Source: a virus
IMG/VR virus record: IMGVR_UViG_3300045929_000106
Span: 1-63,198 of that record
Strand: one strand, 5' to 3'
DNA length: 63,198 nt
The notes beneath the pieces were generated by a model. The model was not told the DNA's origin, made no database searches, and saw only the letters and a program-made list of their open reading frames with translations. Shown here in pieces: positions 706 to 63,198 of this stretch; within the stretch, counting starts at the first letter, position 1, and every line of letters starts with the position of its first letter. The position numbers were made by a program, and so were the translations under genes.

Positions 706-1896
706 TTGATTCCCCCAATGCCCCGGCTGGCCCTGATCATCCCGATGCCAACCTCTCCTATCGAGCGGTTGGCGGCCCGAGTGCGCGAGTACCTGCACCT
801 CCCGGACCCCGGCCCGCTGTATGTGCTGTGCGGGGCCGTCGCCGCCAACATGATCGAAGGGGCGCCGGTCTGGCTCATGCTAGTGGGCCCGCCAAGCTGC
901 GGCAAAAGCGAACTGCTGAACTCGCTCCTGGAGGTGCCGCACATGGTGGGAGGCGCGGACATCGCCGGGGAGGCCGCGTTCCTCTCCGGCACGAGCCGCA
1001 AGGAGAAGGCGCAAGACGCCACCGGCGGCCTGCTGCGCGAGATCGGGGACCACGGCGGCCTGATCCTCAACGACTTCACGAGCATCCTCTCCAAACCCCC
1101 GGAAAAGATCAACAGCATCATGGCCATTCTCCGCGAGTGCTACGGTGGCCGGTGGACCCGCCACATCGGCGGCGAGGGCGGGCGGCGGCTCACCTGGGTA
1201 GGCAAGCTCGCCATGCTGGCGGGCTGCACCTCGCGCATCGACCAGTGCCACCAGATCAACTCCGAGCTGGGCGAGCGGTGGATCTACTACCGTTTCGAGC
1301 ACCGTGACGTGTTCGCGGACACGATGCTCGCGCTGAGTAATGGACGCAACGGCTGGCGCGAGGACTTCCAGGCCACGATGCGGGATTTCTTCCAGAACCT
1401 CGATCTGTGCTTTGGCGAAGTGAAACCGCGCCGGGAGTTTACGCACAGCGAACGGCTGCGGCTCCACGAGCTGGCCCTGCTCGCCTCCCGCTGCCGGAGC
1501 GCGGTAACCAGGGACAGCTACTCCAAGGAGATCGTGGCGGCGCGGGAGGACGAATTAGCGATTCGATTATCCACCGTGTTAGCGCAGTTACTGGTGGGGA
1601 TGGACGCCGTGGGCGTGCCCAAGAAGACGGCGTGGCATCTGCTGGGGAAGGTGGCGATGGACTCCATGCCCCGGCTGCGCAAGCTGACCGTGGACGCCGC
1701 CGCCCTCTCGAAACCCACCGTGGAGGAGCTGCAAGTCGTTCTGGGCTGCTCGCTTAGCGTGGTCAAGCGGGTGGTCGAAGACCTCCACATGCACGGGGTG
1801 GTGGACCGCATCGACGGGCGGGTCTGCCTCACCGAGTGGATGCAGAAACAACACAACCGCTTTTGTCAAGCTTCGTCAGCTTGGACTCCCAGTTGA
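706..1896 (+). CDS. P-loop (AAA-type) ATPase with C-terminal winged helix, putative replication initiator/helicase-like protein
   Basis: The 396-residue frame has a Walker A motif (GPPSCGKS, residues 61-68), a Walker B-like LILNDF around residue 123 and a sensor-like AGCTSR near 172-177. The last 60 residues look like a winged helix-turn-helix. The frame opens with TTG at 706; ATG codons at 718 and 745 are equally possible and no ribosome binding site decides. It follows the ParB-like gene by about 55 bases, and its stop codon lies inside the first of five iteron-like repeats, as for plasmid Rep proteins beside their origins. The ATPase assignment is seen in sequence; the replication role is inferred from context. 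Confidence 0.65.
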   Translation: MIPPMPRLALIIPMPTSPIERLAARVREYLHLPDPGPLYVLCGAVAANMIEGAPVWLMLVGPPSCGKSELLNSLLEVPHMVGGADIAGEAAFLSGTSRKEKAQDATGGLLREIGDHGGLILNDFTSILSKPPEKINSIMAILRECYGGRWTRHIGGEGGRRLTWVGKLAMLAGCTSRIDQCHQINSELGERWIYYRFEHRDVFADTMLALSNGRNGWREDFQATMRDFFQNLDLCFGEVKPRREFTHSERLRLHELALLASRCRSAVTRDSYSKEIVAAREDELAIRLSTVLAQLLVGMDAVGVPKKTAWHLLGKVAMDSMPRLRKLTVDAAALSKPTVEELQVVLGCSLSVVKRVVEDLHMHGVVDRIDGRVCLTEWMQKQHNRFCQASSAWTPS

Positions 1897-2001
1897 GCTT
1901 ACACTCCCAGTAGCTGTAAACCCGGCTGAGCCTCATACTCCCAGTAGTCCCCGGGCCGGTTGAGCTTATACTCCCAGCAGCGGAACTCAGACTCCCAGTA
2001 G
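1885..2001. repeat. Iteron-like direct repeat cluster, candidate replication origin
   Basis: Five direct copies of ACTCCCAGTAG or a one- to two-base variant lie at 1885-1895, 1903-1913, 1937-1947, 1970-1980 and 1991-2001. Each is preceded by a related GAGCTTAT-like stretch, so the unit is near 19 bp. Start-to-start spacings are 18, 34, 33 and 21 bp. The cluster sits directly downstream of a putative Rep-type ATPase. Single copies in the other orientation occur at 45728-45738 and 49230-49238. Iterons of a replication origin, or a protein-binding cluster for ParB or a repressor, are the likely readings. Confidence 0.6.
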
Positions 2002-2151: not shown

Positions 2152-3027
2152 ATGCCGAAAGCCGCAGGGCTGATGAGCCCGGAGAACGCCGTCAAGGGCG
2201 CGGGGGCCTTCAAGGAAGGGTTCATCCGCATCGACAGCAACAGCTACAAAGTGCATCAGGCCAAGGGCGAGGACGCCGTCCCGGCCACCAAGTGGGTATG
2301 GCAGGTGACCCGCCTCAACGAGAGCGGCGAGGAGCCCCTGGTGGACGAGCATGACGAGCCCATTCGCGAGGAGCTGGCCTTCTCGTTCGGGGGCAAGTGC
2401 CTGCCATTTATCCACCCGGCGAGAGCGGACGGCCCGGATGACGAGGAGCCCGAGGACATGGGGACCGAGGTGGGGGCGGAGGGCAACACGCTGTACCTGA
2501 ACGCGCCGGATTGGCGTCCCAACGAGCGTTCCGGCGTGATCATCCTGACCGCCAGCATGCAGAAAGCCGGGGTGAAGAGCGAGTACCTGAAGCGGTGCTG
2601 GACCCCGGACTGGAACGGCTGCGTTTTCGAGATGCGGCAGTCCGCGCCGGAGAAGGGCCGCGACGGGCGGGAGTTCTCCTACAAGATCTGCAGCAAGGTT
2701 CTGGTGGGCCCCGGCGGCAAGGCGAAGGCGGCGGGCGCTGGCTCGAAAGTGAACTCCGGCGCGAAAGCGGGCGGGTCCAGCGACCTGGAGCCCCTGCTGA
2801 CCGGCGTGATCATGGGCCTGTCGCAGGAGATGGACGGCCAGCAAGTCACCAAGAAGGCCTTCGTCAACCGGGTAAGGGCGGCGCTGGACGAGAAGAAGGT
2901 GGACAGCAAGCTGATCGTCCCGGCCCTGACCCTGGTCAAGAACGACATCTGGCTCAAGGAGCGCGCCGGGCTGCTCGATATCAGCGTCTCCGAGAACGCC
3001 ATCCTGTTCGGGCGGCTGGAGGCGTGA
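2152..3027 (+). CDS. Hypothetical protein, possible single-strand DNA-binding partner of the recombination module
   Basis: A 291-residue protein with no family I recognise. The ATG at 2152 is preferred over an upstream in-frame start at 2107 because the region before it overlaps the iteron-rich control DNA. The N-terminal 170 residues are mixed beta-rich sequence with a tract WKWVWQ-like aromatic signal. A Gly/Ala/Lys-rich linker follows near 190-210, then a helical C-terminal domain. It opens the operon that carries RecB-like and Sak4-like proteins, a position often held by single-strand-binding proteins. That role is inference from position only. Confidence 0.5.
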   Translation: MPKAAGLMSPENAVKGAGAFKEGFIRIDSNSYKVHQAKGEDAVPATKWVWQVTRLNESGEEPLVDEHDEPIREELAFSFGGKCLPFIHPARADGPDDEEPEDMGTEVGAEGNTLYLNAPDWRPNERSGVIILTASMQKAGVKSEYLKRCWTPDWNGCVFEMRQSAPEKGRDGREFSYKICSKVLVGPGGKAKAAGAGSKVNSGAKAGGSSDLEPLLTGVIMGLSQEMDGQQVTKKAFVNRVRAALDEKKVDSKLIVPALTLVKNDIWLKERAGLLDISVSENAILFGRLEA

Positions 3028-3759: not shown

Positions 3760-4295
3760 TGAAAGAAGACGAGATTATTGCGCGCCACGGCAAAGTTCAA
3801 GAGCGCATTGTAAAGAGCGAGCCCAGTAAAGAGAAAGTGGGAATGTATCTGAAGTCGCAACGTTATGACATATGGTGGGAACCGGCTCAAATTGCGCCCG
3901 CCTACAATGACCGTCGAAAGTTTTCGGATAAGGGCGACCTGCATATCAGGCTCAACAACCGAGTGGAGCATATTGAGGTGAAGGAGCGTGATGTCGAGTT
4001 TACGCGCCAGGAAGACTTCCCACACGAGTGGGTGTTCATATGCAGCGTTGACCCTTTCATGGCGGCGGCGCGAGAGGGGCGAACGCCGCTCGCTGTTGTG
4101 TTCCTGAATAGCGCCAACAGCCATGTGGCGGTGACCCACATATTTACACGGAACGAATGGAAAGTGCGACCGAGAGTATACGATAAGTTGCTGGGAACTT
4201 ATGCTGACACATTTGTCATTCGCCCGGATCAGGTAATGTTCGGCCCGTTTCACGAGGTTGACACTTTGTTGCTTCTGGAATCAGTAAGATCATGA
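3759..4295 (+). CDS. Small PD-(D/E)XK-like protein, possible nuclease or resolvase
   Basis: A 178-residue protein whose ATG overlaps the previous stop and whose stop overlaps the next start (ATGA). Residues 58-75 read as KGD followed by HIEVK, giving Asp60, Glu73 and Lys75 in the spacing of a PD-(D/E)XK active site. It is visibly more AT-rich than both neighbours, which suggests a separate origin. A Holliday-junction resolvase or a restriction-type nuclease are alternatives. No family name is certain. Confidence 0.55.
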   Translation: MKEDEIIARHGKVQERIVKSEPSKEKVGMYLKSQRYDIWWEPAQIAPAYNDRRKFSDKGDLHIRLNNRVEHIEVKERDVEFTRQEDFPHEWVFICSVDPFMAAAREGRTPLAVVFLNSANSHVAVTHIFTRNEWKVRPRVYDKLLGTYADTFVIRPDQVMFGPFHEVDTLLLLESVRS

Positions 4296-5137
4296 AACAA
4301 ATCCCTATCCAGATCGAGGGCTTCACGTTCGATTCGACGCCCGACACCAAGCCCGCCGTCTGCGTTTACGGCGAGGAGAACACCGGCAAGACCCGGTTCG
4401 GCTGCACGGTCCCGCACGATAGCGGCGTGGTGGGCTGGCTGGCCCTCGACAAGAACTCCAAGGGCACGGTGGAGCAGTACCAGGAGCGGAACGGGGACCG
4501 GCGCATCCTGGTCAACCAGAAGCCGTTCCTGTCCAACAAGGACGCCATCAAGCTCGCCATGACGGAGAAGCCCGCCGAAACCAAGCTGTTGGCGAAGGCC
4601 GTCGTAGAGAAGGTCTGGGACCACGCCATGAAGCTCGCGGACCACAAGGACGTGGAGTCCATCGTGATCGATGACGGGTCGCAGTTGTTCGACTGGATTC
4701 TGTTCTCGCATTTCGGCAGGCGCAACCAGATCGAGAGCTACCAGCGGGGCGGGCCTAACAACGACTTCATCGAGCTGATTACGGCGCTCGGCAGCAAGAA
4801 CCTCTGCATGATCTGCCGGGGCACGGAGGTCTGGGCAGACACCGGCGAGGTGGACGCGCAGGGCCGCAAGAAGCAGGCCCCCACCGGCAAGCTCAAGCCG
4901 GAGGGGTTCGGGAAGCTGGGCAAGTTCATGACGGCGGTGGTGGAGCTGTCTGCTACCCGCAAGAAACCGGCGGAGGACGCCACCGCCGAGGAGGCGCTGG
5001 CCGCCAAGTACAAGTGCAAGGTGATGACGTGTAAAGGCGACACGCTGCTGGAGGGCCAGGATCTGACTCCGTTCGGCGTCTGCGGGGCGGAGATCACCTG
5101 GGACAACGTGATGACCGTTATAAGAGCCAAGGACTAG
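4292..5137 (+). CDS. Sak4-like RecA-fold ATPase, single-strand annealing recombinase
   Basis: The 281-residue protein carries Walker A GEENTGKT at residues 27-34 and a Walker B-like SIVIDD ending at Asp127-Asp128. The size, the small first strand before the P-loop and the Walker B context fit the phage nucleotide-binding/Sak4 family, which promotes strand annealing in phage recombination. It is encoded just downstream of two nucleases in an overlapping operon, the usual setting. The late Cys-containing strand near residue 250 is typical of nothing in particular. Confidence 0.7.
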   Translation: MKQIPIQIEGFTFDSTPDTKPAVCVYGEENTGKTRFGCTVPHDSGVVGWLALDKNSKGTVEQYQERNGDRRILVNQKPFLSNKDAIKLAMTEKPAETKLLAKAVVEKVWDHAMKLADHKDVESIVIDDGSQLFDWILFSHFGRRNQIESYQRGGPNNDFIELITALGSKNLCMICRGTEVWADTGEVDAQGRKKQAPTGKLKPEGFGKLGKFMTAVVELSATRKKPAEDATAEEALAAKYKCKVMTCKGDTLLEGQDLTPFGVCGAEITWDNVMTVIRAKD

Positions 5138-5139
5138 TT

Positions 5140-5310
5140 ATGCATTCCTATATCGTGCGTTTGCGGCGAGTGATGGAATGGGAACAAGTGTACGAAGCAG
5201 ACTCCCCAGAAACCGCCATAGAACTGGCCAAGCTGGAGGCCCACCACGGGACCGTCGTAGATGAGCTGGCGAGCGTGGAGGAGGTCCAGCCAGCCGAGGT
5301 AGTCGATTGA
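5140..5310 (+). CDS. Small hypothetical protein
   Basis: A 56-residue reading frame starting two bases after the stop of the Sak4-like gene and ending in a TGATG overlap with the next one. It begins MHSYIVRLRRVM and continues acidic. The pattern of beta strand, then YEADSPETAIELAKLEA helix resembles short phage proteins that take a ferredoxin-like shape, but no function can be given. The tight packing argues that it is expressed. Confidence 0.6.
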   Translation: MHSYIVRLRRVMEWEQVYEADSPETAIELAKLEAHHGTVVDELASVEEVQPAEVVD

Positions 5311-7888: not shown

Positions 7889-8085
7889 ACGAGCCGCCCC
7901 GCAAGGACCCGATGGCCATCCTCTGGGTGGCCGCCAACCGCAGCGCCCTGACCGAGGTCGCCAAGCAGTGCGGCTGCTCGGTGCAATTTGTGAGCTATGT
8001 GTTATACGGGCGTAAACGGTCTGGGGACGGAAAGGTGGAGCGCCTGCTCAGAGAGTTAGGGGCCCCAATTAAATCAACAAGGTGA
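7885..8085 (+). CDS. Small helix-turn-helix (Cro-like) protein
   Basis: A 66-residue protein with an HTH-like stretch ALTEVAKQCGCSVQFVSYVL at residues 21-40, followed by a basic helix. It is of a size typical for Cro-type regulators. Its ATG overlaps the previous stop and its TGA overlaps the GTG of the next gene. A regulator of this operon is a reasonable inference. Confidence 0.55.
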   Translation: MNEPPRKDPMAILWVAANRSALTEVAKQCGCSVQFVSYVLYGRKRSGDGKVERLLRELGAPIKSTR

Positions 8086-27050: not shown

Positions 27051-30000
27051 TTAGATGAATGCGCCGCGCTCGTAATGCGGGCCGCCGAATGGTTTTGTCA
27101 CCATGTACTCTGAGGTCCCCCGGCTCCACTGGGCCACGCGGACCTCGCAATCCTTCTGGAAAAGGCGGAAGGGAACGCAGCTCGTCAGGGAATAACTGAC
27201 CAGCTTGGCCTTCTGCGGGCGCAGGACCTCGTACAGCTTCTGCACGGTGCCCACGGTGGAGGCGAAGACATAACTGTTCACGGTTCCGCTGGTGTCCGTG
27301 ATCCGCAGGGTCACATAGTCGTAGCTCTGCAGGGCGATATAACAGTCGCGGTGGTGATACCAGCCCTGCAGGCCGTGCGAGGTGGTCTGGGTGATCCAGT
27401 TCTTCGCCAGCTCCGGCGCGGGCTCCCAGACCCAGCGGATCTTGAAGTTCTGGTCATAGCGGATGGGGATCGAGGGGATGCAGCGGAGCTGGTGCGCGAT
27501 GAACGGCGTCATAAAGCTGTAGGCCATCTCGCGCTCGCCGTTATGGTTGATCTTCTGGAAGACCTGGGCCACCTGCCCGCCGTCGTACTGGACCGTGAAG
27601 TCGCAGTCCAGGCCGCCGGTGTCAGCCTGGAGCACGAACCCCTGCACGAACTTCGCGCCCTCGTAGCCATCGTCCGTCCAGTCCGTCCAGAGGGCTGCGA
27701 GATCGGGTTTGGGGTAGCCTATCCAGCGGACCTTCCACTCCGGGTACTGCCGCCAGTTGCCCTTGGGGACCAGCTTGATCTCGGTGGAGATGAACGGGGC
27801 CCCGAAGCTGTAGGCCTTCTGGACGCGCCCGTCATGGTTGACCGAGAGGGTGCGGACCACCGCGCCCTCGCTGACCACGTCCACTTCGATGACCTCGCCC
27901 TGCGTGTCCGCTTCAATCGCCACGCCGTGGTAAGCCGTGGGGTCCGAGGGAGTGTAGTCGGGGACCCACATGGTGAATTCCGGCTGCGCCACATAGACCC
28001 AGCCCACCTTGAAGTTCTCCAGGTAGCGGATGTTATTGCCCGAGGGGATCAGCTTCATCAGGTGGATGGTGGGCGGCTCGGCCAGGGGATAAGGCTTCTC
28101 CAGCTCGCCATCGTGGTTCACCGTGAAGGTATGGATCAGGGTCTGGTCGCACCATAGCTCCAGGGTCACGTCCTCGCCTTCCGTGTCCGCTTGCAGGACA
28201 AAGCCCTGGAGATACTTGGGCTGCGGCTTACCGTCATCCGTCCAGTCGCTATGGAACTTTGTCAGCTCCGGCTTCTTTGTCCACTTGGGGATGAACCGGA
28301 ACAGCTCCCAGGTGGAGGGCTCCACCGGCACGCAGCGGAGCTGGTGGGTGATGGCGGGGCTGGTGAAGCTGTAGGGCTTGGTCGACTGGCCGCCGTGGTT
28401 GATCGTCAGGGTGGCGATGACCACGCCGTTGTCGCCCTGGACCTCGATCTGCCGGTTGACCGAGAACGTGTTGGCCTCGATCAGGCAGCCATAGACCCAC
28501 TTGTCCCCGGGCTCGCCGTCATCGGTCCAGTCCGTGGCGCGGGCCTTGCTGATCTCCGGTTTGGGGACGAAGCTCGGCTGGTATTGGTAGAGGTAGCTGA
28601 CGCCGGCGCCGGTCCAGTCTACGTCCAACGCGAAGGTGGGCGAGAGTAGGCCCAGGCCCAGGTTGAAGTCGACCACAAACTGGTCGCGGGCGCTCCCGGC
28701 GAGGGACTCCGCCACCACGGTGTCGATGCTGAAGTCCGTGCGCGCGGCGGTATGTACGGTGTTGCCGCCGGGATTGCAGTCGAGAATGTAGTCGCCCCAG
28801 AGCTTCTGCAGGCGCGGGTCGCCCATGTCTTCCGCCCGCGTGATCAGGCGGCAGAAGATGGCGTTGCCGTTGTCCGTGGTCCCGCCGTAGTTGTACAGTT
28901 GGTTCCCGCAGCCCACCAGCAGGTTGTTGGCGTTATACCACTCGCTCCCGCCGGGGACCTTGAAGCCGCCAATCTCAAAGGCGCGGCTGGTTGGCTTGGT
29001 GTTCACGTAGCCGAGCGCCCCCGCGTCGTCCAGGCCGAATAGGTCGATGCTCACCCAGCCCTTGGCCTGCTTACTGTCGTAGACCAAGGTCGCGTAAGTG
29101 GTCCCGGCGGCTCCGATGGTTGTCTGAGGGAAGTCGTAGAAGAGCAGCCCGTCGAACCACGTCAGCCGGTGGTAGCGCAGCTTGCCGTAGCTGAAATCCG
29201 GTTTACTGATCCATGACTCGTTCACCAGCCAGGGGAAGATCTGCGCGAGCGTGCGCGGGCTGGTGTTGTCATGGATGAAGAACGGGTACATGGCCGCGTC
29301 CGTCAGGCACTCCAGGCCGCTCGCGATAGACCAGTTGTACACGCCGTCCCGGCCCAGCCATGTGACATGCTCGGCCACGCCGGTGGTCTGGGTGGTCAAC
29401 GAGTAGGGGGCCCATATGCCCTTGCCGCCGGGGACCTCCTCCACCTGGAACTGGCCGGGGGCGATTAAGCTTGGGTACACGCGGAACATGCGCTCCGTCG
29501 ACCAGAGCAGGCAGGTGCCGTCCACCATGCAGCCGTTCACCAGGGGCTCGGTGGCGCTCGTGACCGTCAGGCTGTTGACCACGTCCGTCGAATCGGGATC
29601 GTTGCCGTTTGTCCAGTAGAGATCGCCGGGGGCCTCCGCGTTCCCCACGCCGAAAACGAACGCGCCGCCGGTCCCGGTGGAGAACGGGCCCCAGATGTGC
29701 GGCAGCGCCGTGCCGTGCTTCAGCGTGCCTTCCGGCGTCGACCACGGCACCGCGCCGCCCTCCACCGCGCCGCTCGCGTCCTCCGTCAGCTCCAGGACCG
29801 TATCGCTGAGGACCTGGAAGATGGAGAAGTTTCCCTGATTGACGCCGATATAGGAGCCCTGGAACCAGCGGGTGTTGAAGTAGTCGCCCGTGGAGCGGGT
29901 GAGAATATAAGTGCCGGTGCCGGTAGCGGATAAAGTGGCGTTGCCGAAGTGCGCGCGGTCCTGGGTGACAAACGGGGCGTACTGCGTGAACCGGGTGACG

Positions 30001-30959
30001 CCGGTCACCGGGTCCGTCGCGGACGGCGGGGACGGGGAGGTCTGGAGCACCTCGTCCGCATAGGTGTCGTCAAACGTGTCTCCGCTATTGCCGGTGCCCA
30101 CGTACACCCAGCGGTCGATGGTCCCGCCGAGACGGTACACATCGATATAGATGTTGGGGTCCGGTGTCAGCACGTCGTTCTGGGGATCGTAGGGAGCGTT
30201 GGGCAGCGTAAAGCGCGCGGACTGCTCGTCCAGGACGAGGTAGGGGCTGGCCAGGGTGACGCGAGTGGGCGCGGAGGGGTTGCTCCGCGCGCCGGTGAAG
30301 CGGTTGCGGTAGGCGAAGGCCCACTGGTACGCGCCGCTCAGCGGGCCGCCCCCTCCAGCGCCCCCTATAGCCACTGGGACCACTTGGTTGACCGGGATCG
30401 GCAGCCCCATGTAGTTGGCGCGGGCCATGGACGGATAGCCCGCCACGGGCGGAACCAGAGGAGTGTAATCCGGCAGATCGCCCGGGTAGTAGCCAATCGA
30501 CAGCATTTGCGACTGGTCCCCGATGTACTTGAAGGCGAACGGGGTCCCGATAGGCGTCATGTCCACGAACGAGAGAGGGAGCCCGCTCAGCGGCAGCCGC
30601 ACCCAGGTTCCGCCCGATGGATAGTAGGGGAGCTTCACCGGGTTGGGAGTGGCGTGCATCAGATACACGCCGTCCTTGCCCACCCGCAGCTTGGTCCCGA
30701 TGCCCACCACGTACTCGTAGCTGTAATGCTGCGCGCCGTGGCTGTTATTCATGCGGGAGATCGAGTGGATATCCACGTCGCCGTCTATCGCCATGTCGGC
30801 AAACAGGCTCAGGCCGGGGCGGGAGGTGATCTCGCCCTGTTGCGACATGCGGACGTTGCGCATCAGGACGCCCTGCTCGTCGGGGACTGCGTCCGCTGGC
30901 CGGTTCCAGTTCATGCCCCTGGTGGGGAACTTTACCGTCTTGCGCTCAAAGGCTGCCAT
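27051..30959 (-). CDS. Large nozzle-like tail protein with five C-terminal tandem repeats
   Basis: The 1302-residue protein begins FPTRGMNWNRPADAVPDEQG, which resembles phage tail nozzle/stabilisation proteins (P22 gp10/T7 gp12 type), and contains a beta-propeller-like first 780 residues. From about residue 813 the sequence repeats in blocks of about 93 residues. DWTDDG-type starts lie at roughly 813, 906, 1001 (variant DYTPSD) and 1094, and a divergent fifth lies to 1280. No SD is seen; instead, an 11-bp repeat array lies directly upstream. A short-tailed virion is the main implication. Confidence 0.7.
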   Translation of the reverse strand: MAAFERKTVKFPTRGMNWNRPADAVPDEQGVLMRNVRMSQQGEITSRPGLSLFADMAIDGDVDIHSISRMNNSHGAQHYSYEYVVGIGTKLRVGKDGVYLMHATPNPVKLPYYPSGGTWVRLPLSGLPLSFVDMTPIGTPFAFKYIGDQSQMLSIGYYPGDLPDYTPLVPPVAGYPSMARANYMGLPIPVNQVVPVAIGGAGGGGPLSGAYQWAFAYRNRFTGARSNPSAPTRVTLASPYLVLDEQSARFTLPNAPYDPQNDVLTPDPNIYIDVYRLGGTIDRWVYVGTGNSGDTFDDTYADEVLQTSPSPPSATDPVTGVTRFTQYAPFVTQDRAHFGNATLSATGTGTYILTRSTGDYFNTRWFQGSYIGVNQGNFSIFQVLSDTVLELTEDASGAVEGGAVPWSTPEGTLKHGTALPHIWGPFSTGTGGAFVFGVGNAEAPGDLYWTNGNDPDSTDVVNSLTVTSATEPLVNGCMVDGTCLLWSTERMFRVYPSLIAPGQFQVEEVPGGKGIWAPYSLTTQTTGVAEHVTWLGRDGVYNWSIASGLECLTDAAMYPFFIHDNTSPRTLAQIFPWLVNESWISKPDFSYGKLRYHRLTWFDGLLFYDFPQTTIGAAGTTYATLVYDSKQAKGWVSIDLFGLDDAGALGYVNTKPTSRAFEIGGFKVPGGSEWYNANNLLVGCGNQLYNYGGTTDNGNAIFCRLITRAEDMGDPRLQKLWGDYILDCNPGGNTVHTAARTDFSIDTVVAESLAGSARDQFVVDFNLGLGLLSPTFALDVDWTGAGVSYLYQYQPSFVPKPEISKARATDWTDDGEPGDKWVYGCLIEANTFSVNRQIEVQGDNGVVIATLTINHGGQSTKPYSFTSPAITHQLRCVPVEPSTWELFRFIPKWTKKPELTKFHSDWTDDGKPQPKYLQGFVLQADTEGEDVTLELWCDQTLIHTFTVNHDGELEKPYPLAEPPTIHLMKLIPSGNNIRYLENFKVGWVYVAQPEFTMWVPDYTPSDPTAYHGVAIEADTQGEVIEVDVVSEGAVVRTLSVNHDGRVQKAYSFGAPFISTEIKLVPKGNWRQYPEWKVRWIGYPKPDLAALWTDWTDDGYEGAKFVQGFVLQADTGGLDCDFTVQYDGGQVAQVFQKINHNGEREMAYSFMTPFIAHQLRCIPSIPIRYDQNFKIRWVWEPAPELAKNWITQTTSHGLQGWYHHRDCYIALQSYDYVTLRITDTSGTVNSYVFASTVGTVQKLYEVLRPQKAKLVSYSLTSCVPFRLFQKDCEVRVAQWSRGTSEYMVTKPFGGPHYERGAFI

Positions 30960-30965
30960 GTTATG

Positions 30966-31075
30966 CCACCGCTATACCACCGGAATCCCACCGGAATACC
31001 CACCCCCGGGAATACCACCGGAATACCACCGGAATACCACCGCTATGCCACCGGAATACCACCGGAATACCGCCA
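30966..31075. repeat. 11-bp tandem repeat array
   Basis: Ten tandem units of about 11 bp, most reading CCACCGGAATA on the plus strand, with CCACCGCTATA/G variants and one expanded 16-bp unit at 30999-31014. The array fills the gap between two minus-strand genes, from the stop of the upstream gene to six bases before the ATG at 30959. Because 11 is not a multiple of three, every frame of the array gives a repeated peptide. It probably affects RNA structure or initiation of the nozzle gene, but this is inference. Confidence 0.85.
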
Positions 31076-32371
31076 TCACGCCACCTGCTGGTCCGTCAGG
31101 TCCGCGCGCTGGAAGAGGCTCGTCAGGTAGCGGACCTTCGTCTCCAGCCGCTTGTTGCGCCGCGCCGCTCCCGCCAGGAAGTTGTCGTAGAGCGGCATGG
31201 TCGAGATGAATTCCGCGCCGCCCATCTTCCAGCTCAGGATGTGACGGCAGTAATCGTAGAGGTAGGGCAGCTCCTCGCGGCCCGCCTGGACGTAATCGCC
31301 CGCGCCGGTGGTGAGCGGGGCCGCCTGCACGAGATCCAGGCTGATGGTATACGCGCCCCGGGGGACGCGGTAGAGGGCCAGGAGATCGTAGGCGGCGGCG
31401 GCCTGCGAGGGAACGCCGAGGGAAGTCGCCCAGAACGGCTTGGCGCAATCCATCTCCGCGATGGTGGCGAGCGGAACCGGCGAGCCGTTGACGCGCACGC
31501 GGAGCATCGAGTGCGCCATGGCGGCGATGTCCAGGGCGTTCTGGTAGCGCTCCTGGCAGTACTTGGCGCGCAGCGGATCGTAGCCGGGGTTGTGCGTCGA
31601 GAGCAGATCGTAGAGCGCGCCCCACTTCAGCGCCCAGGCCCACTCGTCGGGAATGGCGAAGCTCACGGCGTCGTTGGGGATCAGCTCCAGCGTCTGCGCG
31701 TAGATCAGGTGGATCGTCCCGGCGCCGCTCGGCGGCGGAACCAGGGTGAGACTCCCGGGCATCGACTCCGCCTGCGAATAGCCGTAGGGCTTGCCGGGGT
31801 TCAAGCTCCACAGGGGGGAGTAGGCCTGCGCGGCGTAGAAGTCCGTGCGGCTGAGCGACCAGGAGGTGACGGTGTCCGTGTCCGTCCACGCCGCCCGGTC
31901 GATCACCGCCACGTCTTGCGGCAGGGGCACGGAGTTGGCGGGCGGGGCCGGTGGCGTCAGGGTGGTGGTGGTCAGCGGCAGGTGCGCGTCGATCACAAAC
32001 TGGTTACGGCGGCGCACGAGGGCTGCGGTGATCTGGTTGATCGAGAACTGCGGCGTCATGCCGGTCCCGGCGGTTCCGGCGGCGGCAGGCTCCAGCAGGT
32101 GGTGTTGGATCTCGGTGACGAGGTTCCCGAAGGCGTAGTCGCGGCGGCGCAGGGTGGGCAGTTCTTGGGAGAGATCGTAGAGGGCGGTGTTGGCTACGGT
32201 GGAGAAACTGGCGGAGGTTGTCCAGTAACTGCAGAGGGCCCCCCATGCGAGAAGAGACTCGTGGAGGGCCCTGCGCAGCTCGTCGGAAGTCCAGAAGACG
32301 AGATCGGGGTCGCCCAGGCTGGCCGCCAATTCAGCGATGAACTGAGACTCCGTAACCTGGGTGTAAGCCAC
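31076..32371 (-). CDS. Probable structural adaptor protein
   Basis: A 431-residue protein with a helical N-terminus (SQFIAELAASLGDPDLVFWT) and several strand- and Trp-rich parts. GTG start with GGGAGATG upstream. It lies between the adaptor-like protein at 32.6 kb and the nozzle-like protein, so a head-tail or tail connector is likely. The final helical 70 residues are charged. Confidence 0.5.
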   Translation of the reverse strand: MAYTQVTESQFIAELAASLGDPDLVFWTSDELRRALHESLLAWGALCSYWTTSASFSTVANTALYDLSQELPTLRRRDYAFGNLVTEIQHHLLEPAAAGTAGTGMTPQFSINQITAALVRRRNQFVIDAHLPLTTTTLTPPAPPANSVPLPQDVAVIDRAAWTDTDTVTSWSLSRTDFYAAQAYSPLWSLNPGKPYGYSQAESMPGSLTLVPPPSGAGTIHLIYAQTLELIPNDAVSFAIPDEWAWALKWGALYDLLSTHNPGYDPLRAKYCQERYQNALDIAAMAHSMLRVRVNGSPVPLATIAEMDCAKPFWATSLGVPSQAAAAYDLLALYRVPRGAYTISLDLVQAAPLTTGAGDYVQAGREELPYLYDYCRHILSWKMGGAEFISTMPLYDNFLAGAARRNKRLETKVRYLTSLFQRADLTDQQVA

Positions 32372-45538: not shown

Positions 45539-45724
45539 TCAGTCCTCCGTCGACCCGTACATCACTTCGACCCGTTCGTTGATCGCGCTGCCGGTGGCGG
45601 TGATGCGCCGAATGCCGCGCGACTCCAGGTCCAGCTCGTAGAGGTCGCGGATCTCCTCCAGGGCGGCGGCGGTGCGCGCCAGCGATTTCACGAAGAGGCG
45701 GATGAGACGTATGGTCGCAAACAT
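45539..45724 (-). CDS. Small hypothetical protein
   Basis: A 61-residue, basic helical protein (MFATIRLIRLFVKSLARTAA) just upstream of the terminase ATPase gene, followed by a TGAATG junction. The first 20 residues are amphipathic, and it could associate with membrane or DNA. No family. An ACTCCCAGTAG-type site lies four bases upstream (minus strand 45728-45738). Confidence 0.5.
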   Translation of the reverse strand: MFATIRLIRLFVKSLARTAAALEEIRDLYELDLESRGIRRITATGSAINERVEVMYGSTED

Positions 45725-45750
45725 AAACTACTGGGAGTCCAAGCGCCGTA

Positions 45751-46641: not shown

Positions 46642-47344
46642 CGATTCCTCCTTCGCCTCTGTCCAGCGTAACGTCGACGGTGCGCCGGTCCATCTCGTCC
46701 AGGCGCTCCATCTCGTCCAGCACGGAATCGGCGCGCACGTTCACGCTGACGGCGACACCGGACGGCTCGGCGGAGATCACACCGGCGTTGCGCATGACCC
46801 ACTCGCGCGACTTCAGGTCGCCGGGGCGGCGCACAAGGCCGGAGCCTTTGCACTGCTTGCACTTGATCCAGACCATGCCCATGCCGTCCTCGATGCGCAT
46901 CGAGCCGCCGCCGTCGCAGCGGGGGCAGCAGACCTCGACGGACTTCGCGTCCTCCGACATGTCGCGCGCGACTTGCGGCGCGGAGCGGAGCGCCTCCCCG
47001 AGCGCCGCCGTCTTTTGCCTGTCGCGCCAGATTTCCATCAGGTCCTTCGACTTCATGCCGCAGCGGTTGGCGAGCACCGACAGCGGGAGATCCATGAAGC
47101 GCGGGTTGCCGAGCATCTCGCAAAACTTCAGCGCGCCGGGATGCTCGCTCTCGATCATCGCTTGGTGGAGATCCTCGCGCAGCACCGAGTCGATCCAGGG
47201 AAGAACGCCATGGGCTTTCGCGGGAAGCTTGGGGGGCTCGGCGGTGAGCATTGCGTCCGCGTGTTGAGGGGCGGGGACCGGAACCGGGGCGCGAACGGAA
47301 TCGGGGACGGGGACCGGAACCGGAGCCGGAGCAGCCTTCTTCAC
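46634..47344 (-). CDS. Terminase small subunit-like protein with a zinc ribbon
   Basis: A 236-residue protein with a Pro/Val-rich start, a helical domain (LPWIDSVLREDLHQAMI and following) and a CxxCxGxG-type double pair (CPRCDGGG, CKQCKGSG) near residues 139-168, as in DnaJ zinc fingers. A DNA-binding small terminase subunit would fit the place ahead of the large terminase; the zinc finger is not typical. GTG start overlapping the previous stop. Confidence 0.5.
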   Translation of the reverse strand: MKKAAPAPVPVPVPDSVRAPVPVPAPQHADAMLTAEPPKLPAKAHGVLPWIDSVLREDLHQAMIESEHPGALKFCEMLGNPRFMDLPLSVLANRCGMKSKDLMEIWRDRQKTAALGEALRSAPQVARDMSEDAKSVEVCCPRCDGGGSMRIEDGMGMVWIKCKQCKGSGLVRRPGDLKSREWVMRNAGVISAEPSGVAVSVNVRADSVLDEMERLDEMDRRTVDVTLDRGEGGIDG

Positions 47345-47772: not shown

Positions 47773-48969
47773 ATGGCAAGACAACGCTATCAAGAAGGAC
47801 GCATCGAGAAGACCGGCAAAACGCCCAAGTGGAAGGGTCACTACTACACGTATGACGGGACCGGAAAGCGGCATCACAAGCTGGTCGATCTCGGCCCCTG
47901 CTCCAAGGTGACGAAGACCGAGGCGCAGAAAAAATTCCGCAAGATCGTGGAGAAGGAAACCGGCGCCGTCAAAGCCGCCAACGAAGAGGACACTTTCGAG
48001 TGGTTCTGGACCGAGCGCTTCGCCCCCTTCAAGCCGTGGACGAAAAAAACGCGCGAGTGGATCGAGGGCATCTTCACGCGCGACGTGCTGCCGGAGCTGG
48101 GGCCGCTCAAGCTGGGCGAGATCAAGACCATCCATGTGGAGCTTCTGATGAAGAAGCTGGAGCCGAAATCCTATTCGCTCTCGCGCGCCGTCCGCACCTA
48201 CATCAAGATGGCGTTCCAGAAACTGGAAGACGAGGACATGATCGTCAAGAACCCCACGCGCCGGGTGAAGATCCTCGCCCGGAAACCGTCGCGCCGCAAG
48301 CGCCACATCAGCAAAGAGGAGCTGGATCTCCTGATCTCCGAGCTGAACGCGCGCGACAGGCTGATCGTCAGGATCGCGGTGGTGTGCGGGCTGCGGCCCG
48401 CCGAATTGTTCGCTCTCAAGTGGGACGACTTCCACCCGGAGACGGGGCAGCTCCGCATCGATGAAACGTATTCCGGCGGCGAGTGGAAGGAGACGAAGAC
48501 CGAGGAGTCGGACGGCTGGGTGTCGATGCCGCCCTCGATCACCAAGCAGCTCCAGTTCTGGCGCGAGCAGAATCCGCAAGGGCAGTTGATCTTCTCCGGC
48601 GGGCGCAAGTTCGACCACCCGATCATCGCGGACAACTTCGTCGACAGGAACCTGCGGCGGGCCGCCGTGCGCGCCGGGATCATGCCGTCGAATCCCAAGG
48701 AGGGCCGCGTGAACGAGTTCTACGGCGACAAGCGCACGGCGGTAAACTTCCAGGCGTTCCGGCGCACCTGCGCAACATGGTGTCTGCAGAACGGCTCCAT
48801 CAAGGACGCGCAGACCCACCTGCGCCACCGCAACCCGGCTACCACGCTGGGGCACTACATCCAGACCGTCCCGGCCAGCGTGCGCAGCGCCGTCGAGGGA
48901 GTGGACACCCACTTCTTCGCCAGCGCGAAACCGGCCCGCCCGCAGCAACTCTCCACCGCCGTCCAATAG
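47773..48969 (+). CDS. int: Tyrosine integrase
   Basis: A 398-residue tyrosine recombinase. The catalytic domain has Arg208 (CGLRPAELFALKW), a FQAFRRT box with Arg330, His352 (LRHRN) and the nucleophile Tyr362 (LGHYIQ). The usual His of HxLR is Gln327. The N-terminal 170 residues form the arm- and core-binding part. It is divergent from the late operon and convergent with an excisionase-like gene. Phage integration is the natural role. Confidence 0.85.
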   Translation: MARQRYQEGRIEKTGKTPKWKGHYYTYDGTGKRHHKLVDLGPCSKVTKTEAQKKFRKIVEKETGAVKAANEEDTFEWFWTERFAPFKPWTKKTREWIEGIFTRDVLPELGPLKLGEIKTIHVELLMKKLEPKSYSLSRAVRTYIKMAFQKLEDEDMIVKNPTRRVKILARKPSRRKRHISKEELDLLISELNARDRLIVRIAVVCGLRPAELFALKWDDFHPETGQLRIDETYSGGEWKETKTEESDGWVSMPPSITKQLQFWREQNPQGQLIFSGGRKFDHPIIADNFVDRNLRRAAVRAGIMPSNPKEGRVNEFYGDKRTAVNFQAFRRTCATWCLQNGSIKDAQTHLRHRNPATTLGHYIQTVPASVRSAVEGVDTHFFASAKPARPQQLSTAVQ

Positions 48970-48972
48970 GCC

Positions 48973-49176
48973 TCATTTGCCGGAGGGCCTTCTCGCCGCC
49001 GAGAGGGCCCTCTGCTCCTTCAGAAATTCGTCCAGGTCCTCCAAGCAGAACCGCAACGATCCTCCCATCCGCACCACCGGCACGCGCGGGCGCTTTCCTT
49101 CGACGTGCGCATACATCCAGGCCACGGACATCCCGAGGTATTGCGCCGCTTCCTTGATTCCCATGAGTCTGCTCAT
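48973..49176 (-). CDS. Excisionase-like HTH protein
   Basis: A 67-residue protein with GIKEAAQYLGMSVAWMYAHV at residues 6-25, a MerR/HTH_17-type DNA-binding helix-turn-helix, and a basic tail. It lies four bases from the integrase 3' end in the opposite direction, as excisionases often do. The function as Xis is inferred. An ACTCCCAGT-type site lies upstream at 49230-49238. Confidence 0.6.
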   Translation of the reverse strand: MSRLMGIKEAAQYLGMSVAWMYAHVEGKRPRVPVVRMGGSLRFCLEDLDEFLKEQRALSAARRPSGK

Positions 49177-49228
49177 AGACGAAAGCTAACGCAGAAAAAG
49201 AATCTGAAACAGACTTGCGCAAAATATC

Positions 49229-49238
49229 GACTGGGAGT
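49229..49238 (-). promoter_or_regulatory. Dispersed iteron-like site
   Basis: GACTGGGAGT here is the reverse complement of ACTCCCAGTC. Extended, it shares 16 of 17 bases with the copy ending the ATPase gene at 1.9 kb (CAGCTT-GACTCCCAGT). It lies in the gap between the excisionase-like gene and a small membrane protein gene, where an operator or protein-binding site would act. Confidence 0.5.
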
Positions 49239-53569: not shown

Positions 53570-53883
53570 CAATGTGTCCCTTCTGGTTAAAGATCAACTA
53601 CAGTCAGGACTTTATCACACATCTAAACGCAAATCAGTTCATCCGCCAACGGCGTTTCCGCCACAACCCCTGCCACGTCTTCCGCCCGCGCCGAGGCCGC
53701 TTGAGGCCGAGGCACCAGGGCGGAACCGGGGCCCCCTGACACCGGCTCCATCGGAATCTTCACTTACACCCACAGGAGCAGTCTAAAACGGGGGGCCGGG
53801 ATACGCAAGTAGCAGGAACTCGATGAATTTTAGAGTAGAGAAATAGGTGGTGTTAAGCCATGGATATAACAGTTATATCGCCG
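53570..53883. promoter_or_regulatory. Control region with a palindromic operator-like site
   Basis: This 314-base gap has no gene. It holds GATATAACAGTTATATC-type symmetry at 53863-53879 (core ATATAACAGTTATAT, 53864-53878). The same core occurs at 62024-62038 and, with one mismatch, at 62066-62080. The gap faces the start of the leftward accessory operon. No promoter elements stand out. The sites suit a regulator or a ParB-type binding site. Confidence 0.55.
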
Positions 53884-58649: not shown

Positions 58650-59093
58650 ATGACATACGAAGCCAAGATAGAGACGCCGCAGGGGCTGGAGACGGTCCAC
58701 TGCACAGACGAGCAGATCGACATGCTCCCGCCGTCTAGCGGGGCCCGTATCCTGCGCGACGAGCAGCGCGCGGGAGTTTACGTGTCTGACGCGGAGATCG
58801 CGCGCCAGTATCACCGGGAGGCCCCCATGCGCGAGGCTGAACGCGCGGGCGAGGCGCGCGGCTGGAAACCCGCCATCCGCTGGCCGCAAGCGCCCGTGGA
58901 CGCCGAGGTCTGGTTCCAGATCGAGTTCAGCCCCAAGGGCGCGAATGACTGGGCCCTGGTGGACGGCCAGACCTGGGAACTGCTGGCGAACGCCCGCGCC
59001 GTTATGCGCAACCTCGCCAACATGCACGTCATTCACGGCGACGTGGAGTATCGCGTGGTCCGCAAGACCGTCACCACGGAGGTGGCCGAGTGA
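58650..59093 (+). CDS. Hypothetical protein
   Basis: A 147-residue protein starting MTYEAKIETPQG after the fifth leader copy (AATCGAGAAAGGACAC). A strand-rich first part is followed by a charged helix and a beta C-terminus. It overlaps the recombinase by four bases. A partner of the recombinase is possible. Confidence 0.5.
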   Translation: MTYEAKIETPQGLETVHCTDEQIDMLPPSSGARILRDEQRAGVYVSDAEIARQYHREAPMREAERAGEARGWKPAIRWPQAPVDAEVWFQIEFSPKGANDWALVDGQTWELLANARAVMRNLANMHVIHGDVEYRVVRKTVTTEVAE

Positions 59094-60067
59094 CCGCTGA
59101 AGTGATCACCATCCCCCAGAGACAGCCCGTCGAAGCCTTGATCGAGGTAGCCCTCGCCACCTGCGAGAGCCCCGAGACGCGGCGCTCGTACTCGACGCAA
59201 CTTCGCAAGTTCATCGCGTCTGGACGCCCCCTCACCCGCGAGGGGGTGGCCTTCTTCCTCCAGGCGCAGCGGGAGGCCGGGAACGGCCCCGCCACGCTCT
59301 CCTCGTGCCTCGCCGCCATCCGGCGGCTGGTGGCCGAGGCCCACGTTCGCGGCCTCGTCAGCGATGCCGAGTATTACGGGATCGGCCAGTTGAAGTCGGG
59401 CAAGGTCTACAAGAACCGGCGGGGGTTGTGGCTCACCCTCGCGCAAACCAAGCAACTGCTGGCCCTGCCCGATAGAGCCGCCTACTGGGGCAAGCGGGAC
59501 GCCTGCCTGCTCTCGTGCATGATCGGCTGCGGGTTCCGCCGGGAGGAGATGGCCCGCCTCCGCTGGTCGCACTACCAGGAACGCGAAGGCCGCATGTGTT
59601 GGGTGGATTTTGTGGGCAAGGGCCGGAAGCAGCGCACCGTGCCGGTGCCCTCGTGGGCCCAGGCCGACATCGACGCCTGGAGGGAAACGGCGCTCAACGA
59701 GCCCCATCCGCCGCGCCCCGCCGGGACCGAGGCCAACCCCCGCTACGCGCTCGACAACGAGTACGTGATGCAGGGCTACGCGGCCTTCTCGCTCTACCGG
59801 ATCATCGAACGCTACGGCGAGAAGCTCGGCCTGGACCTCGCCCCCCACGATCTCCGGCGCACCCTGGCGCAACTGTTGCGCAAGTCCGGGGCCCCGCTGG
59901 AGCAGATCCAGCACACGCTCGGCCACGAGAAGATCGCGACCACCGTCATCTACCTGGGCGCGTCCCTAGAGCTGGCCCCCGGCGCCGCCGCCGTGGACAA
60001 GATCGCTCTAGGGATGCCCGCCACAGGCCCCCAGACGCCCCAGGGTGCGCCGGGAGGTGCCCGGTGA
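59090..60067 (+). CDS. Xer-type tyrosine recombinase
   Basis: A 325-residue tyrosine recombinase with a full set of catalytic residues: Arg150 (GCGFRREEMARLRW), Lys177 (VGKGRKQRTV), His253 and Arg256 (PHDLRRT), His279 (LGHEK) and Tyr288 (TTVIYLG). The N-terminal SAM-like core-binding domain spans about residues 12-85. GTG start overlapping the upstream stop. Compared with the integrase at 47.8 kb it is smaller and Xer-like, fitting multimer resolution of a plasmid form. Inference. Confidence 0.8.
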   Translation: MTAEVITIPQRQPVEALIEVALATCESPETRRSYSTQLRKFIASGRPLTREGVAFFLQAQREAGNGPATLSSCLAAIRRLVAEAHVRGLVSDAEYYGIGQLKSGKVYKNRRGLWLTLAQTKQLLALPDRAAYWGKRDACLLSCMIGCGFRREEMARLRWSHYQEREGRMCWVDFVGKGRKQRTVPVPSWAQADIDAWRETALNEPHPPRPAGTEANPRYALDNEYVMQGYAAFSLYRIIERYGEKLGLDLAPHDLRRTLAQLLRKSGAPLEQIQHTLGHEKIATTVIYLGASLELAPGAAAVDKIALGMPATGPQTPQGAPGGAR

Positions 60068-61439: not shown

Positions 61440-61553
61440 TTAGTATACTGGAAGAATAATATAGATATAGTAGTTATACACAGCAAAATCACAGAAGCTC
61501 ACCCTTATATATGGAAACGGAACGGCAACTATTTTTTATAGGAGAGTATATAA
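61440..61553 (+). promoter_or_regulatory. AT-rich leader/promoter region
   Basis: A markedly AT-rich 114-base stretch in an otherwise GC-rich genome, with TATACT at 61444-61449 and TTATATAT further on. GGAGAG lies before the ATG of the regulator at 61554. No clear -35 partner was found. It is likely the promoter of the replication/partition module. Confidence 0.45.
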
Positions 61554-62023: not shown

Positions 62024-62087
62024 ATATAACAGTTATATAAATTCGTTGAGGTAGCAACACGAATTAAATAACAGTTATATAAATTCG
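62024..62087. promoter_or_regulatory. Operator-like palindromes within direct repeats
   Basis: ATATAACAGTTATAT (62024-62038) and AAATAACAGTTATAT (62066-62080) stand within a perfect 20-bp direct repeat (ATAACAGTTATATAAATTCG, 62026-62045 and 62068-62087), 42 bp apart. The same palindrome is at 53864-53878. They lie after the RHH regulator and before the HTH and parB genes. Operators or parS-like sites are likely. Confidence 0.65.
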
Positions 62088-62238: not shown

Positions 62239-62604
62239 ATGCAAACAGAATGCGCCCCCCAGCCAGTATCCTGGGGCCCGCCGCCAATCACCGTGCCGCA
62301 GAAATACCGCCCCTCGTCCAACCGGGGAAAGCGGGTTCCCGGCTGGGAGGACACCAACATCACCACGCTGGCGCTCGACATGGGGGTCAGCTACCGCTAC
62401 CTGCTGGGGGTTTTGACCGGCCAGCGCAATACGACACTGGCGATGCTCCAATCCGCCGCCAACTGCCTGGGAATCGGGCTACCTGCGCTAGTGGCGCGGA
62501 TGGAGCAGGCCTGCCGATTGAAGCTTCTTGAGGCGGCCAACTCGCCTGGAAAGGCCGAGCGCCGTCGCATCCGAAACGAACGAAGGGCTATCCGGGCGCA
62601 GTAG
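62239..62604 (+). CDS. HTH protein upstream of parB
   Basis: A 121-residue protein with an HTH-like LALDMGVSYRYLLGVLTGQR near residues 44-63, a helical middle and a basic end. The ATG at 62239 has GAGGAGAG before it; an upstream TTG at 62197 is less likely. It is encoded between the operator repeats and parB, so it may be a copy-number or partition regulator. Confidence 0.6.
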   Translation: MQTECAPQPVSWGPPPITVPQKYRPSSNRGKRVPGWEDTNITTLALDMGVSYRYLLGVLTGQRNTTLAMLQSAANCLGIGLPALVARMEQACRLKLLEAANSPGKAERRRIRNERRAIRAQ

Positions 62605-62669: not shown

Positions 62670-63198
62670 ATGAGCGGCATCCAATCAGCCCAGATTGGCG
62701 AAGAGGTAGTGCTTCTCCTCCCCTCCGAAATCCAGACGATCTCCCGCTATAACGTCAGGCCGTTTTCCTCCTCCGCATCGAGCGAAGACGAAGACAAGCG
62801 CATCGAGCAGTTGGCCCTCTCCATCGAGACGCAGGGCCAGTTCGACAGCGTCCTGATCACCCCCGAGCATGTGTTGGTGGCCGGTCACCGCAGGCGGCGC
62901 GCGGTGATCCTGATCAACGAGCGCAGATCGGCGCGCGGCAGGAGCCTGCTCCGGCTGGTGTGCGCGGTGGACCGCACGGGCGGCGACATGCGGCGCAAGG
63001 CCATCCAGAGCAACCTGCAGCGCCGCCAGACCTCCGTGATGGACCTCGCCTACCTGATCGTCCAGATCCGCGAGGAAAACGACTGGAGGGCCTGGAAGGG
63101 CACCCAGCAGGTGGCTGCCTACCTGGGGATCGATCCGTCCACCGTGGTGGCCGCCGAGCGCTTCCTGGGGGCGGAGAAAGACCTCCAGAACAGGCTCC
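62670..63198 (+). CDS. parB: ParB-like partition protein, N-terminal part (continues at the start of the contig)
   Basis: The N-terminal domain begins with ISRYNVRPF. An EQLALSIETQGQFDSVLI stretch and the HVLVAGHRRRRAV box follow, the two ParB/Srx-fold motifs that bind nucleotide in ParB. The gene runs off the right end and is completed at 148-650, about 343 residues in all. No ParA homologue was found. In phage-plasmids such proteins keep the low-copy molecule in daughter cells. Confidence 0.8.
   Translation, partial: MSGIQSAQIGEEVVLLLPSEIQTISRYNVRPFSSSASSEDEDKRIEQLALSIETQGQFDSVLITPEHVLVAGHRRRRAVILINERRSARGRSLLRLVCAVDRTGGDMRRKAIQSNLQRRQTSVMDLAYLIVQIREENDWRAWKGTQQVAAYLGIDPSTVVAAERFLGAEKDLQNRL
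63052..63198. repeat. Terminal redundancy, right copy
   Basis: This 147-base end repeats bases 1-147 with three mismatches near its start. Here the parB reading frame is open (GAG where the left copy has TAG), so this copy is probably the correct one. Confidence 0.9.

Follow-up and report, generated by a model that had tools for sequence, protein, structure and literature searches.

Results

What purpose is served by five short repeats at the end of an ATPase gene in a soil phage, with a ParB-family gene close by and two further copies dispersed on the other strand? A preliminary description of this DNA favored either the iterons of a plasmid-like origin or a partition/operator system. We examined the window, i.e., the entire 63,198-nucleotide stretch of IMG/VR virus record IMGVR_UViG_3300045929_000106, together with related genomes. 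The contig ends of the window overlap by 147 bp (98% identity), indicating a circular or terminally redundant genome of ~63.05 kb. The parB gene is split by these ends, and its reading resumes at position 148 owing to the overlap. The features referred to below are as follows.

60–650, + strand: ParB-family gene, second part, with helix-turn-helix (HTH) and recognition region GIDPSTVVA
706–1896, + strand: AAA+ ATPase with C-terminal winged helix and MCM-type helicase fold (predicted structure)
1885–1895, + strand: site copy 1, ACTCCCAGTTG, one mismatch, overlapping the stop codon of the ATPase gene
1903–1913, + strand: site copy 2, ACTCCCAGTAG
1937–1947, + strand: site copy 3, ACTCCCAGTAG
1970–1980, + strand: site copy 4, ACTCCCAGCAG, one mismatch
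1991–2001, + strand: site copy 5, ACTCCCAGTAG
2152–3027, + strand: first gene downstream of the array and first of the replication/recombination operon; a guess from its position only would be an ssDNA-binding protein
45539–45724, − strand: small conserved gene beside terminase, downstream of site copy 6
45728–45738, − strand: site copy 6, dispersed, no mismatch, 3 nt 5' of the ATG of gene 45539–45724
47773–48969, + strand: tyrosine integrase
48973–49176, − strand: HTH_17/excisionase-type small DNA-binding protein
49228–49238, − strand: site copy 7, dispersed, one mismatch, ~50 nt 5' of the excisionase-like HTH gene 48973–49176
62239–62604, + strand: Cro/CI-type HTH (XRE) gene upstream of parB, kept in relatives G001, G002, and G012
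62670–63198, + strand: ParB-family gene, first part, with CTP-domain motif AGHRRRRA

Seven sites form a discrete class in the window

The five same-orientation repeats and the two reverse copies noted previously are real: ACTCCCAGTAG with at most one mismatch occurs 7 times in the window versus 0.75±0.78 expected from 100 dinucleotide shuffles, none of which attained 7 (at two mismatches, 25 versus 12.9 expected). The coordinates given earlier were correct for copy 6, whereas copy 7 begins at 49228 rather than at 49230. A 26-nt weight matrix built from the seven sites scores all of them at 22.8–33.2 bits and the next best place in the window at 14.3, a gap that marks the sites as a discrete class. 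The array (1885–2001) covers the end of the ATPase gene and part of the gap before gene 2152, with irregular start-to-start spacings of 18, 34, 33, and 21. Comparison also bore out the ~15–16 bases common to copy 1 and the dispersed copies (AGCTTGGACTCCCAGT/CGCTTGGACTCCCAGT/AGCTTTGACTCCCAGT), and the extended site form approximates (C)AGCTTNNACTCCCAGTAG. Copy 1, in its extended form CAGCTTGGACTCCCAGTTGA, and both dispersed copies are near-palindromes around GACTC, while the left half is weaker in the other copies; overall, the sites are weakly palindromic, the left half being far weaker than the right (ACTCCCAGTAG). All seven point the same way with respect to the gene downstream, at only three independent locations. 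Rfam and tRNA searches gave no match, and among 51 IMG/VR stretches matching ACTCCCAGT-gap-ACTCCCAG a one-mismatch count found no window-like array, L025 being nearest.

Other repeated elements were observed in the window. A tandem array of ~9 copies of the 11-bp unit CCACCGGAATA (30966–31085) lies between the leftward genes 27051–30959 and 31076–32371. The word AAAGGACAC (often TCGAAAGGACAC) stands 1–8 nt 5' of the start codons of rightward early genes (56429, 56674, 57049, 57524, and 58640), with six further occurrences in G001 and six in G002; we take it to resemble the start-associated sequences of cluster K mycobacteriophages.

Relatives carry other site words, partly in matching positions

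Relatives were sought with gene 2152 and with capsid, terminase, Sak4-like, and ATPase proteins. Four more complete genomes, largely co-linear with the window and with end overlaps of their own (110–139 bp), were obtained: G001 (62.0 kb), G002 (63.2 kb), G012 (65.9 kb), and G013 (61.7 kb). Partial relatives include L099, G008, and G018, which contains L126. Megablast and ATPase tblastn searches against annotated phages returned no match. An integrase is present in the window, G001, G002, and G013; at the corresponding place in G012, neither an integrase nor HTH_17 was found. A second, XerC-like tyrosine recombinase (59090–60067) has homologues in 4/4 complete relatives and in L126. L099 also carries imperfect 36-bp tandem repeats (AGAGAGAACCG/AGAGTGGGCCG units) across ~1.3 kb (~3819–5157).

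The window word ACTCCCAGTAG is missing from the four complete relatives, and the ATPase-flanking stretches of G001 and G002 (L056 and L057) hold no ACTCCCAGTAG-type site. Each complete relative has a dispersed dyad of its own, weak in G012. In G001 the dyad TTAGASTCTAA is found at 7893, 19219, and 30788, with a one-mismatch copy at 4900, and in G002 the dyad GTAGASTCTAC at 49, 2897, 41799, and 46590, with a one-mismatch copy at 46864. G013 contains 12 copies of TAGASTCTA versus 0.46 expected, all with G or C as the central base and with flanks that extend to a 19-bp palindrome, GGYNNTAGASTCTANNRCC; these are spread genome-wide and mostly intragenic (10/12 by midpoint count), unlike the intergenic sites of the window and G001. 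The dyad of G012, AGGTT-N7-AACCT, has three copies, one of them in the region between the ATPase gene and gene 2152. Among the partial relatives, G018 has four exact and two one-mismatch copies of TTCAGAWTCTGAA in 25 kb (backward control, 0), one of which, in L126, precedes the start codon of parB by ~11 nt, and L099 has a single ACTGGACTCAAGT upstream of its HTH gene. A GASTC core and a near-palindromic form are common to the sites of most relatives.

We also scanned for any repeated dyad, with no word chosen beforehand and with 24 simulations per genome, matched in trinucleotide composition, as controls. TAGASTCTA-type words ranked first or close to it in G001, G002, and G013: GTAGA-N-TCTAC led in G002, and TTAGA-N-TCTAA came second in G001. 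The best observed score beat all 24 simulations in each genome, close to the limit for the weak G012 family (3.2e-6, the best of its 24 simulations reaching 6.2e-6); in this comparison the best-scoring dyads of the window and G001 were other, GC-rich words. The ACTCCCAG family is not among the window's best dyads because its site is asymmetric.

G001 has counterparts at 3/3 window locations: 30788 in the gap between the ATPase gene and gene 2152, 4900 directly before the homologue of gene 45539, and 7893 directly before an HTH_17-like gene. G002 has the gap and the HTH-gene position in common with the window, and the site upstream of the HTH gene (copy 7 in the window) has counterparts in G001, G002, and L099. 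The gap holds a single site in the relatives and none in G013. The site words of the four complete relatives differ but stand in part at matching positions; the window word is tied to the others by position and core rather than by alignable ancestry. The best reading of these comparisons is that the sites are positionally conserved yet appear to change fast in sequence.

The same gap contains a conserved promoter-like TTGAAT-17-TAyAsT in G001 (30992), G002 (2958), and L122 (G016), of which the window equivalent is weak (2107–2135). A dyad, GTTGAAWTTCAAC, lies over the −35 element of this gene-2152 promoter in G001 and G016, and approximately so in G002.

A ParB-family protein is a candidate binder

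Every complete genome encodes a ParB/Noc/KorB-type protein. The window protein, read across the contig ends, has 343 aa and the motifs AGHRRRRA and SNLQR; profile searches matched it to Spo0J (E 4e-15) and Noc (E 5e-14), while the single-model Pfam ParB_N match to the phage protein stayed under cut-off. The predicted structure of the G013 protein matches ParB/Noc and RK2 KorB (8qa9, TMt 0.62). By profile and predicted fold, the phage protein is a true ParB-fold protein with a CTP domain and a central HTH.

Caulobacter ParB contacts parS through R173 and N178, and its four specificity residues include position 173 (PMC7383237). We assigned the equivalent residues through alignment to Spo0J. In the TAGASTCTA phages they are V/N (G001), I/Q (G002), and L/Q (G013), i.e., an aliphatic residue plus an amide, and in phages with differing sites P/A (window), R/E (G012), and E/E (L126). 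This grouping of putative DNA-contacting positions with site type is suggestive, although it comprises six proteins, was noticed afterwards, and would arise by chance about 1 time in 20. No such grouping by site type is seen for the recognition elements of HTH_17, XRE, and RHH or for the winged helix of the ATPase. The first three were rejected as binder on that ground, and the ATPase because its winged helices are alike in the window and G001 despite differing sites.

A second palindrome in the window, TATAACAGTTATA, is found at 53865–53877, 62025–62037, and 62067–62079, with a two-mismatch copy at 61466. Two copies lie between an RHH-type gene and the XRE-ParB operon, and the palindrome is absent from G001, G002, G012, and G008. 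It is probably an autoregulatory operator; it is nearer parB, and could be the ParB site in place of the seven repeats.

A conventional immunity repressor is the main rival

The main rival holds that the repeats are operators or stoperators of a conventional immunity repressor, which would block initiation or elongation in the prophage; the candidates are the HTH_17 protein beside the integrase, the XRE protein, or one that we did not recognize. We consider this possible, though less likely than not. The sites upstream of the HTH_17 gene in the window, G001, G002, and L099 would suit autoregulation, and the sites of the window and G001 are intergenic. With respect to transcription, stoperators mostly point one way (PMC6550527), and the seven window sites too point one way with respect to the gene that follows; this feature is seen at the three independent locations of the window, and the palindromic sites of the relatives are orientation-free. 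Against it, the recognition helices of HTH_17 do not group G001, G002, and G013, which have the TAGASTCTA core in common, and the XRE helices of the window and G001 scarcely differ, unlike their sites. A candidate dyad exists in G012, where no integrase or HTH_17 was found at the corresponding place; this also led us to drop the idea of a site tied only to the integrase/HTH module. A tandem-HTH protein (53027) has no homologue in G013.

Origin iterons and centromere sites find little support

Iterons of a replication origin had been suggested together with a Rep-type assignment of the ATPase; in this reading, the ATPase or a different initiator would bind the repeats. Five direct repeats beside replication genes invite such a reading, as do a 60% AT stretch (2101–2150) and the detrended GC-skew minimum at 2166. 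The minimum thus falls near 2.2 kb in the window, but the minima of most relatives lie elsewhere, and the origin test is inconsistent between relatives. The spacing of the array is irregular, the dispersed copies are 14–19 kb off around the circle, and the homologous place in the relatives has one site or, in G013, none. Moreover, the best structural matches of the ATPase model, which comprises AAA+ and C-terminal winged-helix parts (mean pLDDT only 67), are MCM helicases (Z ~15–16, 276–293 residues aligned; Foldseek E 1.7e-5), and no Rep family match was found among the proteins scanned, although an initiator of an unknown type may be present. The predicted fold thus replaces the Rep-type label: the ATPase is modeled as MCM-type and not as a plasmid Rep initiator, and its winged helices, as noted, do not follow the sites. 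Given the irregular spacing and the single or missing sites in relatives, together with the integrases and the ParA result below, the iteron and plasmid-like replicon proposal is unsupported, and we regard it as very improbable. The phage ATPase lacks the MCM N-terminal tier, and a distant homologue (29%) occurs in a Fimbriimonadaceae MAG contig (L082).

Alternatively, the prophage could be maintained as a plasmid, like N15 or P1, by a partition system for which the repeats serve as centromere (parS) sites. N15 has a dispersed set of centromere sites, and a ParB-fold protein is encoded near the repeats. A search for the ParA Walker ATPase (AAA_31), however, found none in the window (G000), G001, G002, G012, or G013, while a control search was positive in 14/14 genomes; the window, G001, G002, and G013 encode integrases, and canonical parS gave no strong match. 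We hold this reading to be very improbable. Arm sites of the integrase were rejected, since around the circle ~16 kb separates the array from this gene and there are relatives with sites but no integrase of the window type.

Discussion

We propose that the repeats are dispersed binding sites of a dimeric phage regulator, and that their most likely binder is the phage's own ParB-family protein, which would act like KorB. The first part is well supported: the relatives' sites are spelled differently yet stand at partly the same places, which points to landing sites for a control protein rather than to a plasmid-type origin. For ParB as the binder we see roughly equal chances for and against. The preliminary description holds in part, its operator system linked to ParB being supported: dispersed dyads recur in every complete relative (weakly in G012), ParB is always present, and the L126 site lies before parB. 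Against ParB binding weigh the mostly intragenic G013 sites, the weak palindromy of the window sites, and the competing TATAACAGTTATA. The lack of ParA in five genomes and the presence of integrases favor a regulatory over a partition role.

In the proposed mechanism, which follows that of KorB on plasmid RK2, ParB (parB, 62670 to 650) would load on the dispersed sites, perhaps as a CTP clamp, and in the prophage the loaded protein would reduce transcription of the operons close by. Its targets would be the replication operon from gene 2152, the excisionase-like HTH gene, and terminase-proximal genes, with the strongest control exerted by the five-copy array before the replication operon. An array there, one copy by the excisionase-like gene, and one by the terminase operon fit a control of lytic functions.

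A bolder and more doubtful extension is that, across this lineage of temperate soil phages, an orphan ParB-family CTP clamp without ParA serves as a genome-wide prophage regulator, the clamp and its sites changing together. If so, these phages would have immunity-like specificity groups built on ParB, not on a CI- or Rep-type repressor, and their ParB-site pairs (five or six site types) would form a natural series in which to follow the joint change of clamp and site specificity. Phage ParB-like genes are common and usually labelled "partition"; if ParB regulates here, many of them may be long-range regulators.

Several known systems bear comparison. Iteron-type plasmid origins likewise have direct repeats near a replication gene, but the window spacing is irregular, the array is not kept in relatives, and no Rep initiator was recognized. 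The cluster A mycobacteriophage repressor (L5/Bxb1 Rep) also has dispersed sites in a temperate phage that vary between relatives, and its stoperators lie mostly in one orientation relative to transcription (PMC6550527). Cluster A stoperators are asymmetric and number up to ~30, whereas 3–12 sites occur here, palindromic in most relatives, and no Rep homologue was identified. Bacillus Noc is a ParB paralogue with many 16-bp chromosomal sites (NBS), and few residues switch DNA specificity in Noc/ParB (PMC7383237, PMC8429893); Noc serves bacterial division control, of which there is no sign in these phages.

RK2 KorB with its OB operators shares with the phages a ParB-fold protein and short palindromic sites with a central G/C. 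In both, the sites are spread over a ~60-kb replicon. On RK2, OB operators can act kilobases from promoters (PMC11790492). In contrast to RK2, the phages are temperate, no ParA/IncC homologue was found, no KorA homologue was established, and the window site is far less palindromic. KorA is the promoter-bound partner that locks KorB; in the phages, an HTH gene precedes parB, and the GTTGAAWTTCAAC dyad lies over the −35 element of gene 2152 in some relatives. The OB sequence (TTTAGCGGCTAAA) and the G001 site (TTTAGAGTCTAAC) differ at three positions, and dispersed palindromes, which in a KorB-type regulon would be sites of the ParB protein, are seen in G001, G002, G013, and G018, with ParB as their candidate binder.
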